Source: Myxococcaceae bacterium
GTDB lineage: Bacteria > Myxococcota > Myxococcia > Myxococcales > Myxococcaceae
Assembly (NCBI GenBank): GCA_016793095.1
Contig: JAEUJQ010000050.1
Location: 248,001-312,000, forward strand
Direction of reading: 5' to 3'
Length of the DNA stretch: 64,000 nucleotides
In this document: positions 2,971-40,235 of the stretch, piece by piece
Layout of the letters: the number at the start of each line of letters is the position of its first letter
Position numbering within the stretch: position 1 is the first letter of the stretch
Program-made: the position numbers and the translations under genes
Notes under the pieces: model-generated
The model's database searches: none
Told to the model about the DNA's origin: nothing
What the model saw: only the letters and a program-made list of their open reading frames with translations

Positions 2971-3275
2971 GCGCGGCGTCGTTCAGCGCGGCGTCGTTCA
3001 GCGCGGCGTCGTTCAGCGCGGCGTCATCCTGCGCGGCGTCGTTGGCGCGGCGTCGTTCTGCGCGGCGTCGTTCAGCGCGGCGTCGTTCTGCGCGGCGTCG
3101 TTCTGCGCGGCGTCGTTCTGCGCGGCGTCGTTCAGCGCGGCGTCGTTCAGCGCGGTGTCGTTCTGCGCGGCGTCGATCAGCGCGGCGTCGTTCAGCCCGG
3201 TGTCGTTCTGCGCGGCGTCGTTCAGCTCGGCGTCGTTCAGCCCGGCGTCGTTCAGCTCAGCGTCGTTCAGACCGG
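2971..3275. repeat. 15-bp tandem repeat (about 20 units) in intergenic space
   Basis: About 20 head-to-tail copies of GCGCGGCGTCGTTCA, with variants mainly at the last bases (TTCAG, TTCTG, TTCAGC), fill most of 2937-3367 between two divergent genes. Because the unit is a multiple of three, several frames on both strands stay open: AASFx on one strand and NDAAL/NDAAQ on the other, both of which look like pentapeptide repeats. Near 3037 a unit is one base short, which shifts the frame. No credible start or ribosome binding site precedes it, so I treat it as a minisatellite or a decayed pentapeptide-repeat gene rather than an active CDS. Confidence 0.85.
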
Positions 3276-3367
3276 CGCCCAGTCGGCCCTGCTCGGACGA
3301 GGAGCTGCTCGTTCACCCGGCCCTCTCGCTGGTGGCGTAGCGACAGTGGGCGCGATAGCCCTGCACC

Positions 3368-4402
3368 ATGGACCTGCTCAACGACCTGCTTGGCTTCACC
3401 GCGCGCAGCTTCGTCGTCTTCCTCACCGTGGCGGCATCGACGGCGGTGGTGGTGGCGCTCATCCGCCGGGCGCGGGGCGGCTTCACGACGAAGAGCGGGT
3501 GGCTCGAGGTGAAGCACCTCAACGAACGCTTCGACAACCTGCGCGACGGCCTGCAGGCCGGCATGGCGAAGGGGCGCGCGGCGTACAAGGCGCTGCGCAA
3601 GCAGCAGAAGGAGCTCGCGAAGGCCGCCCAGACGCTGTCGACGACGAAGCCGAGCGTCTACGTGGTGGACTTCGACGGCGACGTGCTGGCGACGGCGACG
3701 GCGAGCCTGCGCGAAGAGGTGACGGCCATCACCAGCGTGGCCAAGCCGGACGACGAGGTGGTGGTGCGCCTCGAGAGCGGCGGCGGCGCCGTGCCGCACT
3801 ACGGCCTGGCGGCGGCACAGCTCGGGCGCCTCAAGGACAAGAAGGTCAAGGTGACGGTGTGCATCGACCGCGTCGCGGCGAGCGGTGGTTACATGATGGC
3901 GTGCGTCGCCGACACGGTCGCGGCGGCGCCCTTCAGCGTCATCGGCTCCATCGGCGTGGTGGCGCAGGTGCCCAACGTGCACCGCTTCCTCAAGCGGCAC
4001 GACGTGGACGTGGAAGAGATGACGGCGGGCGAGTTCAAACGCACCGTGAGCCTCTTCGGCGAAGTGACCGAGAAGGGAAAAGCGAAGCTGCAGGAACAGC
4101 TCGAAGAGACGCACGCGCTCTTCAAGGCGTTCGTGAAGCAGCACCGCGGCGCGCTCGAGGTCGACAGGGTCTCGACGGGCGAGTACTGGCTCGGCACGCG
4201 CGCGAAGGAGCTCGGCCTGGTGGACGTGCTGACGACGAGCGACGACTACCTGACCGCCCGCGCGAAGACCGCGAACGTGTTCTGGGTGCACTTCCACCCG
4301 GCCAACAGTTGGCGCGAGCGCCTGATGGCCGGGGCCGCCGAGCTGTCCGAGCGGTTGGTCCTGCGACTCTGGAGTCGCGCGCAGCACCTGCGGCTGCAGT
4401 GA
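3368..4402 (+). CDS. sohB: SohB-like inner-membrane protease (peptidase family S49)
   Basis: A 344-residue S49 serine protease. A membrane anchor spans about residues 13-33, followed by a basic, coiled region and the protease fold. The nucleophile serine is S172 in AASGGYMMA and the general-base lysine is K224 in GEFKRTVSLFGE; their 52-residue spacing is that of the Ser/Lys dyad in SohB. The substrate-binding Gly-rich strand ESGGGAVPHYG is also present. Length fits SohB, not the double-domain SppA. Family members degrade signal peptides or membrane-protein fragments. It stands alone, after the 15-bp repeat block. Confidence 0.88.
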   Translation: MDLLNDLLGFTARSFVVFLTVAASTAVVVALIRRARGGFTTKSGWLEVKHLNERFDNLRDGLQAGMAKGRAAYKALRKQQKELAKAAQTLSTTKPSVYVVDFDGDVLATATASLREEVTAITSVAKPDDEVVVRLESGGGAVPHYGLAAAQLGRLKDKKVKVTVCIDRVAASGGYMMACVADTVAAAPFSVIGSIGVVAQVPNVHRFLKRHDVDVEEMTAGEFKRTVSLFGEVTEKGKAKLQEQLEETHALFKAFVKQHRGALEVDRVSTGEYWLGTRAKELGLVDVLTTSDDYLTARAKTANVFWVHFHPANSWRERLMAGAAELSERLVLRLWSRAQHLRLQ

Positions 4403-35599: not shown

Positions 35600-36640
35600 T
35601 CACGGTGTCGCTGCTCCGGCAACGCCGCAGGGCAGGTCGCCGACGATGGCCGTCACCGCCCGTCCCCCGGAGCCACGGGGGCAGAGGCCGAAGAGGCGCT
35701 CGATGGTCGGCCGCACGTCGGCCTGCGTGGCCAGCTCGTCCCCTCCGCGCACGAGGTCACCCGCGGCCAGCAGGAAGATGTTCCGGCTCGCGTCAAAGGC
35801 GCCATGGGCGTGCCAGAGCGACCCGGGTCCACGTCCGTGGTCAGTGGTGACGAGCAGCGTGGTGAGGCGGCGCTCGTCCTCAGGCCAGGTGCGAACGACT
35901 TCGAGCAGCGCGGCGATAGCGTCGTCGGCCGCCCTGAGCGCCTGCACCGTGCGCTGTGCGTCACGCTGGTGCGCCCACTCGTCGGTGTCGAGCAGCGCGA
36001 GCTGCAGGAAGCGGGGCCGGTGGGTGGTGAGGTGGCTGAGCGCTCGCGCCGTCGTCTCCACGTCCCACCGGGCGTCCTCCCACGGCGGACCGCCCGGCCC
36101 AGGGAGGCCTCTCGGCGGGGCGTCGAGCGTGACGGCTCCCTCAGCCCCTGCGGCCGCAAACGAGAGCCGGGCCCAGGAAGCGAACACCGCGACCTGCTCC
36201 ATCGGCAGCCCGAGGCCACGGGCGAGGCCTTCCGCGACCGTCTCACCCTCGAGGCGGGCGCAGTCGTTGTCCTCACACGACGTCATGCGGCCAGCGGCGA
36301 GCGCCTGGTAGCCCGGGAGGCTCAGCGGCACCTTCGACGAGGTCGTGGCGCGCAGCGCGACGCCGTTTCGCGCGACCAGCTCGAGCAGCTTCGGCATCGC
36401 GGGCGATGAGGAGAGCGCGCCCGGCTGGGCGAGCACGTCCTGCCAGCGCGCGCCATCGAGCGTGACGAGCACCACGTGCGCCTTCTGCTGGAGCGTCGAG
36501 GCCGGCACCACGAGCTGACCACCCGCGGTCCCGAGCGCTCGAGACGGCAGCCCGCGCGGCGAAGGCTCACTGGAGCCCGTGACGAGCACAGCCGTCGTCA
36601 GGGTGAGCGTCACCGCGCCGAGAATCCAGAGGGCTCGCAC
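35600..36640 (-). CDS. Exported phosphodiesterase/alkaline-phosphatase superfamily protein
   Basis: A 346-residue protein with an N-terminal signal or anchor (ALWILGAVTLTLTTAVLV). The fold is that of type I phosphodiesterases and nucleotide pyrophosphatases: metal-binding strand VLVTLDGARWQDV, a Ser/Thr-rich nucleophile region (ATTSSKVPLSLPGYQ), DTDEWAHQRD and TTDHGRG metal sites. The layout suggests hydrolysis of phosphate or sulfate esters in the periplasm. The exact nucleophile residue is not clear by eye. It stands alone between the hydratase and the rhodanese fusion gene. Confidence 0.72.
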   Translation of the reverse strand: MRALWILGAVTLTLTTAVLVTGSSEPSPRGLPSRALGTAGGQLVVPASTLQQKAHVVLVTLDGARWQDVLAQPGALSSSPAMPKLLELVARNGVALRATTSSKVPLSLPGYQALAAGRMTSCEDNDCARLEGETVAEGLARGLGLPMEQVAVFASWARLSFAAAGAEGAVTLDAPPRGLPGPGGPPWEDARWDVETTARALSHLTTHRPRFLQLALLDTDEWAHQRDAQRTVQALRAADDAIAALLEVVRTWPEDERRLTTLLVTTDHGRGPGSLWHAHGAFDASRNIFLLAAGDLVRGGDELATQADVRPTIERLFGLCPRGSGGRAVTAIVGDLPCGVAGAATP

Positions 36641-36713: not shown

Positions 36714-38114
36714 TCAGTGCGCCTTCCGCTTCGTCGGGTCAGCAGCCTGAACCTCTGTCACGGTGAACTCCTCGCCCTCGTGGAAGCACACCTCGAAGAC
36801 CGGCAGACCGGCCGCGAGCACGCTGAGCGTCGCGGTGAGGTGCTGCTGCCCGAGCCGCCCCACCGTCTCGATGAGCGCGCCCCGGTCTCGCGGCACCACC
36901 GGCAACAGCCCCTCGACGCGCAGCAGGAACTCGGCCACGTGCGCGCGCAGCTGCTGCGCCACCTGCGGGTGGTTGACGAACATCTGCAGCCCATCGACGT
37001 TCGGCGACAGCAACGGCACCTTGCTGAAGGTCCACAACGACTCGTCGAGGGTGACGTTGACGACGGCGCCTTCGGCGTGGCCTCCGCCGAGGACCACGTA
37101 CTCCGGCTCGGGAGCGCCCTTCCACCGCGTCGTCCAGAAGCCGTGCATCACCTGCTGCACCAGCCCCGGACGCACGCCGTACCGCTCGGGGTAGAGCGTC
37201 ATCAGCCTGAGGTGCCCGCAGCCCATCGCCTCGGGCTTGAGGTACCACTCGAGCACGGCTTCCTGCACCTCGCGCGGCGGACCGCGCATGAAGTTGCGCC
37301 AGTGCATCGGCTGGGAGAGCGGCTCGAGCGCCTTCGTCAGCCGCGGGTCGGCGCGCAGCTTCGGGATGAGCGTGTTGATGGTGCCCGTGTCGCTGTGCAG
37401 GTAGAGGCGGCCGAAGGTGTCGACCCACTCCTGCACCAGCGCGTCGATGTGCGCCTGCTCGAGCGTGGCACCGGTCGCGGTCTCCCAGGCCGCGAGCGCG
37501 AGGCACAGCTCGCCCATGTCTCCACCGGGCGTCCCGATGACCCCCGAGTCGTCGCGGCCGTCCACGCAGCTGCGCCGGCCGCGCGTGAGGAACGCCGCGA
37601 GCGTCATCCACTTCACGTTGCCGCGCCGCCCCACGTGCGCGTCGATGAGCTCCTTCGTCAGGAACCCATCGGGCGGAGGTGGCGGCGGCGGTGGCACCCT
37701 CTCGAGCTTCCGGCCCCGGAAGAGCGTGAGCCGCGAGGTGGACAGCCCCATCGCCTTCCACTGGTGCATGCCGCCCTCCATCGCGGCGACGTACTGCATG
37801 CCGAGCGCCTCGAGGTAGAGCGCCGCGCGGCCAGCCCGCTCCGTGTAGTTGGACACGACGACCGTCACCTGCTCGACCCCCAACACCGACGGAATGCGCG
37901 CGAGCTCTGCCATCGGCACCCGCACCGCGCCGGGGATGTGCCCGAGCGGGCCGGTGAGCTCCGCGTCCTCGCGCACGTCGATGATGGCGACGCGTTTGCC
38001 GACGTCAGCGGCGTACTCGGGAGGCACGGTGGGAACTCCCGCGGCGTTTCGCACACGGCGCTCGACGAAGTTCACGCGCACCAGGCGCTCGGCGAGGGTG
38101 GCTTCGGGGGTCAT
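36714..38114 (-). CDS. Rhodanese-like domain fused to zeta-carbonic-anhydrase-like domain
   Basis: A 466-residue two-domain protein. Residues ~35-125 are a rhodanese fold (VAIIDVRED, GHIPGAVRVPMAEL, MEGGMHQWKAMG); the catalytic-loop Cys is absent (VVVSNYTERAGRAA), so it is probably non-enzymatic. A Pro-rich hinge (141-148) leads to a ~310-residue domain with C183 in SCVDGRDDSG, GTPGGDMGEL, H240 in YLHSDTGT and C299 in GCGHLRLM. In zeta-class (cadmium) carbonic anhydrase the metal ligands are Cys/His/Cys spaced 52 and 58; here 57 and 59. I therefore propose a CDCA-like domain, from recall of the family, not a search. Translationally close (12 bp, AAAAGGAG site) behind the bestrophin gene. Confidence 0.65.
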   Translation of the reverse strand: MTPEATLAERLVRVNFVERRVRNAAGVPTVPPEYAADVGKRVAIIDVREDAELTGPLGHIPGAVRVPMAELARIPSVLGVEQVTVVVSNYTERAGRAALYLEALGMQYVAAMEGGMHQWKAMGLSTSRLTLFRGRKLERVPPPPPPPPDGFLTKELIDAHVGRRGNVKWMTLAAFLTRGRRSCVDGRDDSGVIGTPGGDMGELCLALAAWETATGATLEQAHIDALVQEWVDTFGRLYLHSDTGTINTLIPKLRADPRLTKALEPLSQPMHWRNFMRGPPREVQEAVLEWYLKPEAMGCGHLRLMTLYPERYGVRPGLVQQVMHGFWTTRWKGAPEPEYVVLGGGHAEGAVVNVTLDESLWTFSKVPLLSPNVDGLQMFVNHPQVAQQLRAHVAEFLLRVEGLLPVVPRDRGALIETVGRLGQQHLTATLSVLAAGLPVFEVCFHEGEEFTVTEVQAADPTKRKAH

Positions 38115-38126
38115 CTGCGCTCCTTT

Positions 38127-39020
38127 TCAGAAGAGGTAGCCGTCGACGGGCTGCAACGGCGCCGGCAGGTTCGCCTCGCCGTTCAGCTCGCGCAGGTTGA
38201 TCTCGATGGTGCGGCACAGCGCCGTCATCGGGGTGTCTTGAACGCGGTTCTCGAACGGGTCCTCGTTGACCGACGCGACCCCCTCGAGCGCGAAGAACAG
38301 GAAGCTCGTCGGCACGGTGAAGAACGGCGTCCGCCACCCGAGCGACTCGAGCATCGTCGCCGGGAGGATGAGGACGAAGAAGTACATGAAGAGCCGCGTG
38401 TAGAACTCGTACTGCCGCGGCAGCGGCGTGTTCTTGATGCGCTCGCAGGCGCCCTGCACGTTGGCGAAGTCGCTCAGGGTCTGATCGAGCTGCACCGCGC
38501 GGAAGTCCGTCACCCGGCCCTGCTCCCGGAGCGCCTTCAGCCGCTCGGCCTGCACCTGCAACAGCGCCAGCGGCACGTTGCTCGTCTTGCGCACCGCTTC
38601 GAGCTCACCGCGCTGCAGGAAGGGCTCGAGCTCGCCGAGCAGGTCGGGCTGCTTGCGCAGGTGCAGGCGGAGCGCGTTCACGAAGGCGATGTGCCGATGG
38701 AGCAGCTCGGTGCGCACCTCGGGGGTCGTGTCGAGGAACGTCAGCACCTGTCGCGCGAACGAGCGGCTCGAGTTGACGAGCTGGCCCCACTGCTTCCGCG
38801 CTTCCCACCAGCGGTCGTAGGAGCCGTTGTTGTGGAACGCGAGGAAGATGGCGAGCGCGGTCGCCATCGGGCCGACCGCGGTGTTCGGCACGGCGAGCCA
38901 GGGCGCGGGCACCAGCTCGTAGAGCGCCACCACGAGCAGCGACCACGCGAGCGCGATGGACACCCTGGGACCCTGAACCCGGATGACGACGGACGGCTTG
39001 AGAATCCGGCGGACGATCAC
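38127..39020 (-). CDS. Bestrophin-like anion channel (RFP-TM/UPF0187 family)
   Basis: A 297-residue membrane protein of the bestrophin family, which forms pentameric Cl-/HCO3- channels. Typical motifs: early helices (ALAWSLLVVALYELVP, GPMATALAIFLAFHNN), the NGSYDRWWEARKQWGQLVN segment characteristic of bestrophins, and C-terminal helices with LPATMLESLGWRTPFF and EGVASVNEDPFENR (Ca-clasp-like acidic stretch). The GTG start at 39020 is chosen for its GGGAGGGG ribosome binding site. It is the first gene of a two-gene operon with the rhodanese/carbonic-anhydrase-like fusion; a bicarbonate role is inferred from that pairing. Confidence 0.88.
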   Translation of the reverse strand: MIVRRILKPSVVIRVQGPRVSIALAWSLLVVALYELVPAPWLAVPNTAVGPMATALAIFLAFHNNGSYDRWWEARKQWGQLVNSSRSFARQVLTFLDTTPEVRTELLHRHIAFVNALRLHLRKQPDLLGELEPFLQRGELEAVRKTSNVPLALLQVQAERLKALREQGRVTDFRAVQLDQTLSDFANVQGACERIKNTPLPRQYEFYTRLFMYFFVLILPATMLESLGWRTPFFTVPTSFLFFALEGVASVNEDPFENRVQDTPMTALCRTIEINLRELNGEANLPAPLQPVDGYLF

Positions 39021-39119: not shown

Positions 39120-40235
39120 ATGCACAAGTCGCGAGCTCTGGCTCTGGCGTACGCCGTCGTCTTCTTCTCGTGTGGGCCGCAGCCTACGGCCACTGACGCA
39201 GGCGCTGGCGGAGGCTCGGCCGGTGGCTCTGCAGCTGGTGGCTCTGCGGCTGGTGGTTCGGCGGCTGGTGGTTCGGCGGCTGGTGGTTCGGCGGCTGGTG
39301 GTTCGGCGGCTGGTGGTTCGGCGGCGGGTGGTTCGGCGGCTGGTGGCTCCGCGGCTGGTGGTGCGGCGGCCGGTGGTTCGGCGGCTGGTGGTTCGGCGGC
39401 TGGTGGCTCGGCGGCTGGTGGTTCGGCGGCTGGTGGTTCGGCGGCTGGTGGCTCCGCGGCTGGTGGCTCCGCAGCGGGTGGCTCCGCAGCGGGTGGCTCC
39501 GCAGCGGGTGGCTCGGCGGGTGGTGGCTCCGCAGCGGGTGGCTCCGCGGCTGGTGGCTCCGCGGCCGGTGGCTCGGCGGCCGGTGGTTCGGCGGCTGGTG
39601 GCTCCGCGGCTGGTGGCTCCGCGGCTGGTGGCTCCGCGGCTGGCGGCTCTGCGGGTGGTGGCTCCGCGACATGCACGCCGCAGGTCCGGAACATCACCTT
39701 CGACGGCGGCTGCTCGAACGCGCTGCCGGCTCCTGGCGCCTGCGGTGGCAACGTCGTCGGCACCTGGTGCTACACGGGCTACTGCGCTGACGGGAACGTC
39801 ATCTTCGACGCGGTGACCGCGGCGTGCCCGACGGCGACGTTCAGCAACATCGCTGGCACCGTACGCGGCACGCTGGGCTTCACCGGCTCCGCGGGCGCTG
39901 GCGCCATCAACCGCAACGTGACGTGGACGCTCGGTGGCACCATCGACTTTCCGCAGCTCTGCCGTCAGAACCTCGGGAGCTGTGCGCTGATTGAACAGGC
40001 GCTGGCGGCGGCGTTCCTCACCGCCACCTGCTCGAACTCAGCCGGTGGTGGCTGCTCGTGCGCGTTGAACAACAACGACACCGATACCGGCGCCGGGTCG
40101 TACACCACCGACGGAGGCCTGCTCTCCAACGGGACGCGCACGTTCGAGTACTGCGTGCAGTCGAACACCCTCCGCTACCGCGAGCTCGGGAACATGGCCC
40201 CCGAGCGGGGCGTCGTCGGCACCGTGCAGCGCTGA
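39120..40235 (+). CDS. Lipoprotein with long GSAAGG repeat stalk
   Basis: A 371-residue lipoprotein: signal AYAVVFFSC with lipidation Cys18, a short spacer, about 24 GSAAGG hexapeptide repeats (residues ~32-180) and a C-terminal globular domain of ~190 residues. That domain has six or more cysteines (FDGGCSNALPAPGACGG, CYTGYCADG, CSNSAGGGCSCALNN) and strands with an NxTFDG pattern; I do not recognise it. The repeat is encoded by near-identical 18-bp units, so copy number may vary between strains. The stalk would hold the domain away from the membrane. ATG at 39120. Confidence 0.82.
   Translation: MHKSRALALAYAVVFFSCGPQPTATDAGAGGGSAGGSAAGGSAAGGSAAGGSAAGGSAAGGSAAGGSAAGGSAAGGSAAGGAAAGGSAAGGSAAGGSAAGGSAAGGSAAGGSAAGGSAAGGSAAGGSAAGGSAGGGSAAGGSAAGGSAAGGSAAGGSAAGGSAAGGSAAGGSAAGGSAGGGSATCTPQVRNITFDGGCSNALPAPGACGGNVVGTWCYTGYCADGNVIFDAVTAACPTATFSNIAGTVRGTLGFTGSAGAGAINRNVTWTLGGTIDFPQLCRQNLGSCALIEQALAAAFLTATCSNSAGGGCSCALNNNDTDTGAGSYTTDGGLLSNGTRTFEYCVQSNTLRYRELGNMAPERGVVGTVQR
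39211..39663. repeat. 18-bp coding tandem repeat (GSAAGG), about 24 units
   Basis: Head-to-tail copies of GGTGGCTCCGCGGCTGGT with synonymous changes at third positions (GGTTCGGCGGCTGGTG, GGCTCCGCAGCGGGTG). One unit reads GSAGGG. The array is in frame inside the lipoprotein gene. The opposite strand also stays open (EPPAAEP repeats), which is an artefact of the repeat. Confidence 0.9.

Follow-up and report, generated by a model that had tools for sequence, protein, structure and literature searches.

We describe here a previously unrecognised bacterial protein family that has, judging from structure prediction and conserved motifs, the fold and the metal-site residues of the zeta-class carbonic anhydrases (CAs), fused to an N-terminal rhodanese domain and often encoded directly beside a channel gene of the bestrophin family. 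We consider it rather probable that the bestrophin and the zeta-CA-like gene form a two-part CO2/bicarbonate module, normally working outward and serving pH and anion homeostasis.

The Gene Pair

In the window, that is, the whole stretch of 64,000 nucleotides of the Myxococcaceae contig JAEUJQ010000050.1 that was analysed, the two genes are arranged just as originally predicted from the DNA letters, with the bestrophin stop codon (TGA) followed on the minus strand by AAAGGAGCGCAG and then by the ATG of a 466-residue open reading frame (ORF), and the region first delimited, 36714-39020, correctly covers both genes. The features are the following:

38127..39020, minus strand: bestrophin-family channel gene, 297 aa (PF25539, E 4.5e-75; solved bacterial bestrophins)
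38115..38126, minus strand: intergenic gap of 12 nt, AAAGGAGCGCAG, with the ribosome-binding site (direct reading)
36714..38114, minus strand: rhodanese/zeta-CA-like fusion protein, 466 aa (ORF; relatives; full-length model, pLDDT 90.8)
37731..38042, minus strand: rhodanese domain, about residues 25-128 (PF00581; Z 16.7 to 5ve3)
36717..37667, minus strand: zeta-CA-like domain, residues 150-466 (model pLDDT 91.2; Z 9.6-10.8 to CDCA1 chains)
37551..37568, minus strand: C183-V-D-G-R-D, predicted first metal ligand and Asp-Arg dyad (invariant; CVDGR of CDCA1)
37389..37397, minus strand: H240-S-D242, predicted second metal ligand (H240 and D242 invariant; HGD of CDCA1)
37224..37388, minus strand: helical insert of about 50 residues between HxD and GCG (spacing 59 vs. 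10; helices in the model)
37212..37223, minus strand: G298-C299-G-H301, predicted third metal ligand (C299 in 48/49; aligned to GCG of CDCA1)
37071..37079, minus strand: H346-x-E348, counterpart of the CDCA1 GSHxE motif (H346 in 50/50, E348 in 49/50)

By sequence, the channel belongs to Bestrophin_2 (PF25539), and its best solved match is the bacterial bestrophin 4wd7 (E 6e-38), the likeness to 4wd7/4wd8 extending over residues 48-291. Divergent from the bestrophin gene lies a lipoprotein-like ORF (39123-40235, plus strand) with a long GGSAA repeat and then a cysteine-containing domain, and the gene that follows the pair on its own strand (35600-36640, minus strand) appears by eye to encode a sulfatase/phosphodiesterase-type hydrolase, whose recurrence was not seen at the other loci.

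Predicted Fold and Metal Site of the C-Terminal Domain

Because rhodanese hits dominated the fold searches made with the full-length model, residues 150-466 were modelled alone with AlphaFold2 from 49 homologues, giving a mean pLDDT of 91.2. With VIA-align, this predicted model matched five entries of CDCA1, the zeta-class CA of the diatom Thalassiosira weissflogii, with Z scores of 10.8, 10.6, 10.5, 10.5 and 9.6 and rmsd values of 3.2-3.9 over 174-183 residues, the next-best chain being a beta-CA with a Z of 3.4, and Foldseek against the PDB also placed four CDCA1 chains on top (E 0.015-0.027, prob 0.96-0.99). Two other CA classes tried as candidates, LCIB/theta-CA (5b60, Foldseek prob 0.02) and CsoSCA (Z 2.8-3.3), fell far below CDCA.

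The search of residues 160-466 against the CDCA profile PF18484, which had been proposed as a check, gave a different result, with no match found by profile scans in the 466-residue protein, in eight relatives or in 193 genomes, and for this reason we name the domain zeta-CA-like and regard it as a sister family rather than as a PF18484 member. Profile scans of residues 150-466 gave no Pfam or NCBIfam match at all, the whole protein did not match the beta-CA profile PF00484 (Pro_CA), and PDB sequence profiles gave no link from the C-terminal domain to any CA, so that the CA link is one of fold and motifs. In hhalign, the whole domain compared with the three CDCA1 repeats gave a weak signal (E 0.006 as a single comparison), its score of 25.1 falling below the highest value among 150 column shuffles (30.0). 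Cutting out the insert brought this to E 5e-4 and a score of 31.2, higher than that of any of the 150 column shuffles made for this comparison (24.1 at most), a result that serves as support and not as independent proof because the cut was made after the motifs had been seen. The insert-cut alignment to CDCA1, for which the PDB letters were used, places CVDGR on CVDGR, HSD on HGD and GCGHLRL on GCGFFKL. Taken with the fold match and the metal-site residues, this weak profile-profile signal agrees with the zeta-CA-like character first proposed for the domain.

The candidate ligands named in the original prediction, Cys183, His240 and Cys299 (in GCGH) with spacings of 57 and 59, are indeed present in the window protein and kept in its orthologues. 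C183, D185, R187 and H240 are conserved in all 49 aligned homologues and C299 in 48, and further invariant positions of the family include D242, G298, G300, H301, H346, P367 and H382, a conservation that in the CVDGR and PGGD regions arises partly by selection, since both were among the locus scan patterns, and that for H240, C299, H346 and H382 is free of bias from those patterns. The single member without C299 (L085) has a reading frame that looks broken. The order C183, D185, R187, H240, C299 parallels C263, D265, R267, H315, C325 of CDCA1, and at the level of sequence conservation the family thus has the Cys/His/Cys set together with the C-x-D-x-R motif of the zeta class; in addition, the CDCA1 stretch corresponding to H346-x-E348 reads GSHEEKVV in the PDB sequence.

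The ligand spacing, on the other hand, is not that of the zeta class. The published ligands of CDCA1, C263, H315 and C325, stand at x, x+52 and x+62, with the Asp-Arg dyad starting from D265 (PMC6158936), and the PDB sequences agree with a spacing of 52/10; the value of 52/58 originally ascribed to the cadmium enzyme was therefore wrong, and the near match of the second spacing is coincidental. In the window's family, C183-H240 is 57 in 48 of the 49 members and H240-C299 is 57-61 in an equal number, owing to the extra helices between HxD and GCG. The correspondence to CDCA1 that we propose is therefore one of motifs (CVDGR, HxD, GCG) and predicted fold, not of spacing, and since the third predicted ligand sits beyond the insert, the geometry of the site may differ from that of CDCA1.

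The Rhodanese Half

The N-terminal rhodanese domain expected in the 466-residue protein was confirmed by a PF00581 match over residues 40-121 (E 6.5e-10), together with the rhodanese fold of the predicted model, and this fusion is present in nearly all family members. The top rhodanese match of the window protein is a persulfide dioxygenase fusion. Its own catalytic loop reads SNYTERA, with Ser88 in the position of the catalytic cysteine, and of 46 family members, 37 have Ser here and 8 have Cys. Since the catalytic Cys is missing from most members, the rhodanese half is probably a non-catalytic docking or regulatory domain, comparable to that of RBMP2 in the Chlamydomonas pyrenoid, which likewise combines a link to CO2 handling with a rhodanese domain that is not catalytic, and differs in lacking a CA domain and in having a membrane-shaping role (PMC13345187).

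Distribution and Recurrent Pairing with Bestrophin

Whole-genome searches found full-length orthologues of the 466-residue protein in the window's family, and a pattern scan of genome contigs found the C-terminal domain encoded at 50 loci, with almost all of these lying in Myxococcota, where the distribution is patchy (20 of 195 genomes in the phylum search). Searches of plasmids and viral contigs for CDCA or relatives of the family found none. One member is encoded in an ocean metagenome-assembled genome labelled as an uncultured proteobacterium (L052, CALATR010000842.1), which may reflect either a family reaching beyond Myxococcota or a binning error. Another genome (G007) carries two copies of the rhodanese-zeta-CA gene (L041 and L042), one with an adjoining bestrophin and the other on a contig with a beta-CA about 7 kb away.

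Counting the window and the 50 loci from public genomes, a bestrophin gene directly adjoins the rhodanese-zeta-CA gene in 18 of 51, being co-directional and upstream in 13 (window included), co-directional and downstream in 1 and tail-to-tail in 4; in the 11 upstream pairs examined besides the window, frames either overlap or leave a gap of at most about 50 bases. The pair is adjacent in 11 of the 20 carrier genomes, none of which contains more than 6 bestrophin matches in all, and clustering of the flanking ORFs revealed no other recurring neighbour beyond local Nannocystis synteny. At about two-thirds of the loci, the stretch covered contains no bestrophin, and the members from Nannocystis, Labilithrix and most Archangium are unpaired. 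Traced on the domain tree, the paired state requires 8 changes, so the association is recurrent and not obligatory; the expectation that the pair would be conserved across Myxococcota thus holds as regards its recurrence, in three arrangements, and fails as regards its extent, which is about a third of the loci. In one genome (G105), the bestrophin and the CA-like gene are on separate contigs. In another (G004), a bestrophin 75% identical to that of the window (L127, G004:C428) is on a contig other than that of the CA-like gene, and the pair therefore seems to be split there.

None of the 20 carrier genomes contains RuBisCO, in line with the heterotrophic setting assumed from the beginning, and a role in carbon concentration of the photosynthetic type is thus not indicated. 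Beta-CAs are present in 19 of the 20, which means that the zeta-CA-like protein is not the only carbonic anhydrase of these cells. As far as sequence comparison goes, the pairing across Myxococcota points to heterotrophs having a built-in module for handling CO2 and bicarbonate.

Proposed Mechanism and Alternative Explanations

Building on the modelled fold, the conserved metal site, the pairing and the absence of RuBisCO, we propose that the C-terminal half would be a divergent bacterial zeta-type carbonic anhydrase in which C183, H240 and C299 would hold the metal (Zn, possibly Cd) and the D185/R187 dyad would activate the metal-bound water, with the rhodanese half docking or regulating. Close to where the bestrophin pentamer opens into the cytoplasm, metabolic CO2 would be converted to bicarbonate plus a proton, and the channel would let bicarbonate (and chloride) run down the electrochemical gradient, which as a rule points outward. 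In sum, the cell would dispose of CO2 and load its cytoplasm with acid, that is, achieve a pH/anion homeostasis plausibly offsetting the alkalinity of amino-acid catabolism in heterotrophs. For a passive anion channel in a membrane that is negative inside, the favoured direction of bicarbonate movement is outward, and hence we prefer an efflux and pH-homeostasis module; efflux, with a direction and a permeability that we infer, is likelier than import. KpBest, a characterised bacterial bestrophin, is reportedly cation-selective, and bicarbonate permeation by the window bestrophin is accordingly an assumption. We advance more tentatively, as a less probable extension, that there may be a whole class of channel-coupled zeta-type CAs, in which a dead rhodanese tethers the enzyme to the bestrophin pentamer for CO2-to-bicarbonate export; the zeta class, whose known structures are all from diatoms, would then appear to have a bacterial branch.

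Import of bicarbonate by the pair for anaplerotic carboxylation, as first put forward, appears very improbable to us, given that a passive channel in an inside-negative cell would export bicarbonate unless its outside concentration were very much higher, that no carrier genome has RuBisCO and that beta-CAs are already there in nearly all of them; in its favour, algal bestrophins have been proposed, as part of the CO2-concentrating mechanism, to feed bicarbonate to a carbonic anhydrase (PMC6708349). It is unlikely, too, that the fold and the metal are kept for a sulfur analogue as substrate (hydrolysis of COS or CS2), with the sulfide or persulfide dealt with by the rhodanese and the anions conducted by the channel. 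COS and CS2 hydrolases with the beta-CA fold are known, and both the nearly universal rhodanese fusion and its top match to a persulfide dioxygenase fusion would fit such a substrate. Against it, the catalytic Cys has become Ser in the large majority of members, the window's included, no sulfur-metabolism neighbour recurs, and the recurring partner is instead a bestrophin.

The protein could also be a catalytically weak or silent CO2/bicarbonate sensor that binds and gates the bestrophin, an explanation with a pseudo-rhodanese as docking domain, a helical insert reshaping the surroundings of the active site in the model, and the recurring pairing on its side. Pure sensors often lose ligand and dyad residues, all of which are kept here, and many members have no adjoining bestrophin, so we give this sensor only a small chance, even with the precedent of DabA2, whose CA-like site does not readily hydrate CO2 on its own (PMC13144422). 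Least credible of all would be an incidental neighbourhood, with the bestrophin and an unrelated metalloprotein linked merely by descent; the limited share of paired loci and the unpaired Nannocystis, Labilithrix and most Archangium members speak for it, and the three gene arrangements in several separate clades, the lack of any other recurring neighbour and the few bestrophins per genome speak against it.

Comparison with Known Systems

Compared with CDCA1 (PDB 3bob, 3boh, 3uk8 and 7bez), the window's family shares, in the predicted model, the fold (Z 9.6-10.8), besides the C-x-D-x-R dyad motif, the His and Cys ligands and the GxHxE motif, and differs in being only 16-21% identical in structural alignment and outside the Pfam CDCA profile, in having the 50-residue helical insert before the third ligand, in its single domain with an N-terminal rhodanese instead of three repeats, and in belonging to bacterial heterotrophs with a bestrophin partner. 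The DabA/DabB (DAC) system resembles it in its beta-CA-like Cys2His site, Asp-Arg dyad and membrane-protein partner (PMC13144422), but in DAC hydration is energised by the partner, a proton-translocating NADH:quinone-oxidoreductase/Mrp-like subunit, in contrast to the passive bestrophin channel; the 466-residue protein has no match to the DabA profile PF10070, and its neighbour is a bestrophin and not DabB. In algae, the bestrophins BST1-3 are thought to supply bicarbonate to the carbonic anhydrase CAH3 (PMC6708349), in that case in a photosynthetic eukaryote, with a different CA class located in the thylakoid lumen and no operon.

Only one diatom enzyme accounts for the solved zeta-CA structures (PMC6158936), and a Myxococcota family that shares its fold and metal-site residues but is invisible to the Pfam model would extend the zeta class into heterotrophic bacteria and would bear on the origin of the diatom enzyme. 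Bacterial bestrophins, in turn, would gain from this recurrent neighbour a concrete and testable partner, and bestrophin and carbonic anhydrase would be linked by genetics outside photosynthesis. The literature searched, which covered few subscription journals and is hence weak evidence on this point, held no specific report of a bacterial bestrophin-CA operon or a bacterial zeta-CA and, for bestrophins of bacteria (4wd7/4wd8, for example), named no carbonic anhydrase partner; a count of zeta-CA Pfam hits across prokaryotic genomes, not broken down further, appears in one review (PMC10880623). A separate bestrophin-CA partnership with a different CA class is found in an Archangium-type genome (L142, G097:C55:32500-39000), where an ordinary beta-CA gene (PF00484; 2376-2849, minus strand) adjoins, in divergent orientation, another bestrophin gene (3100-3930, plus strand).
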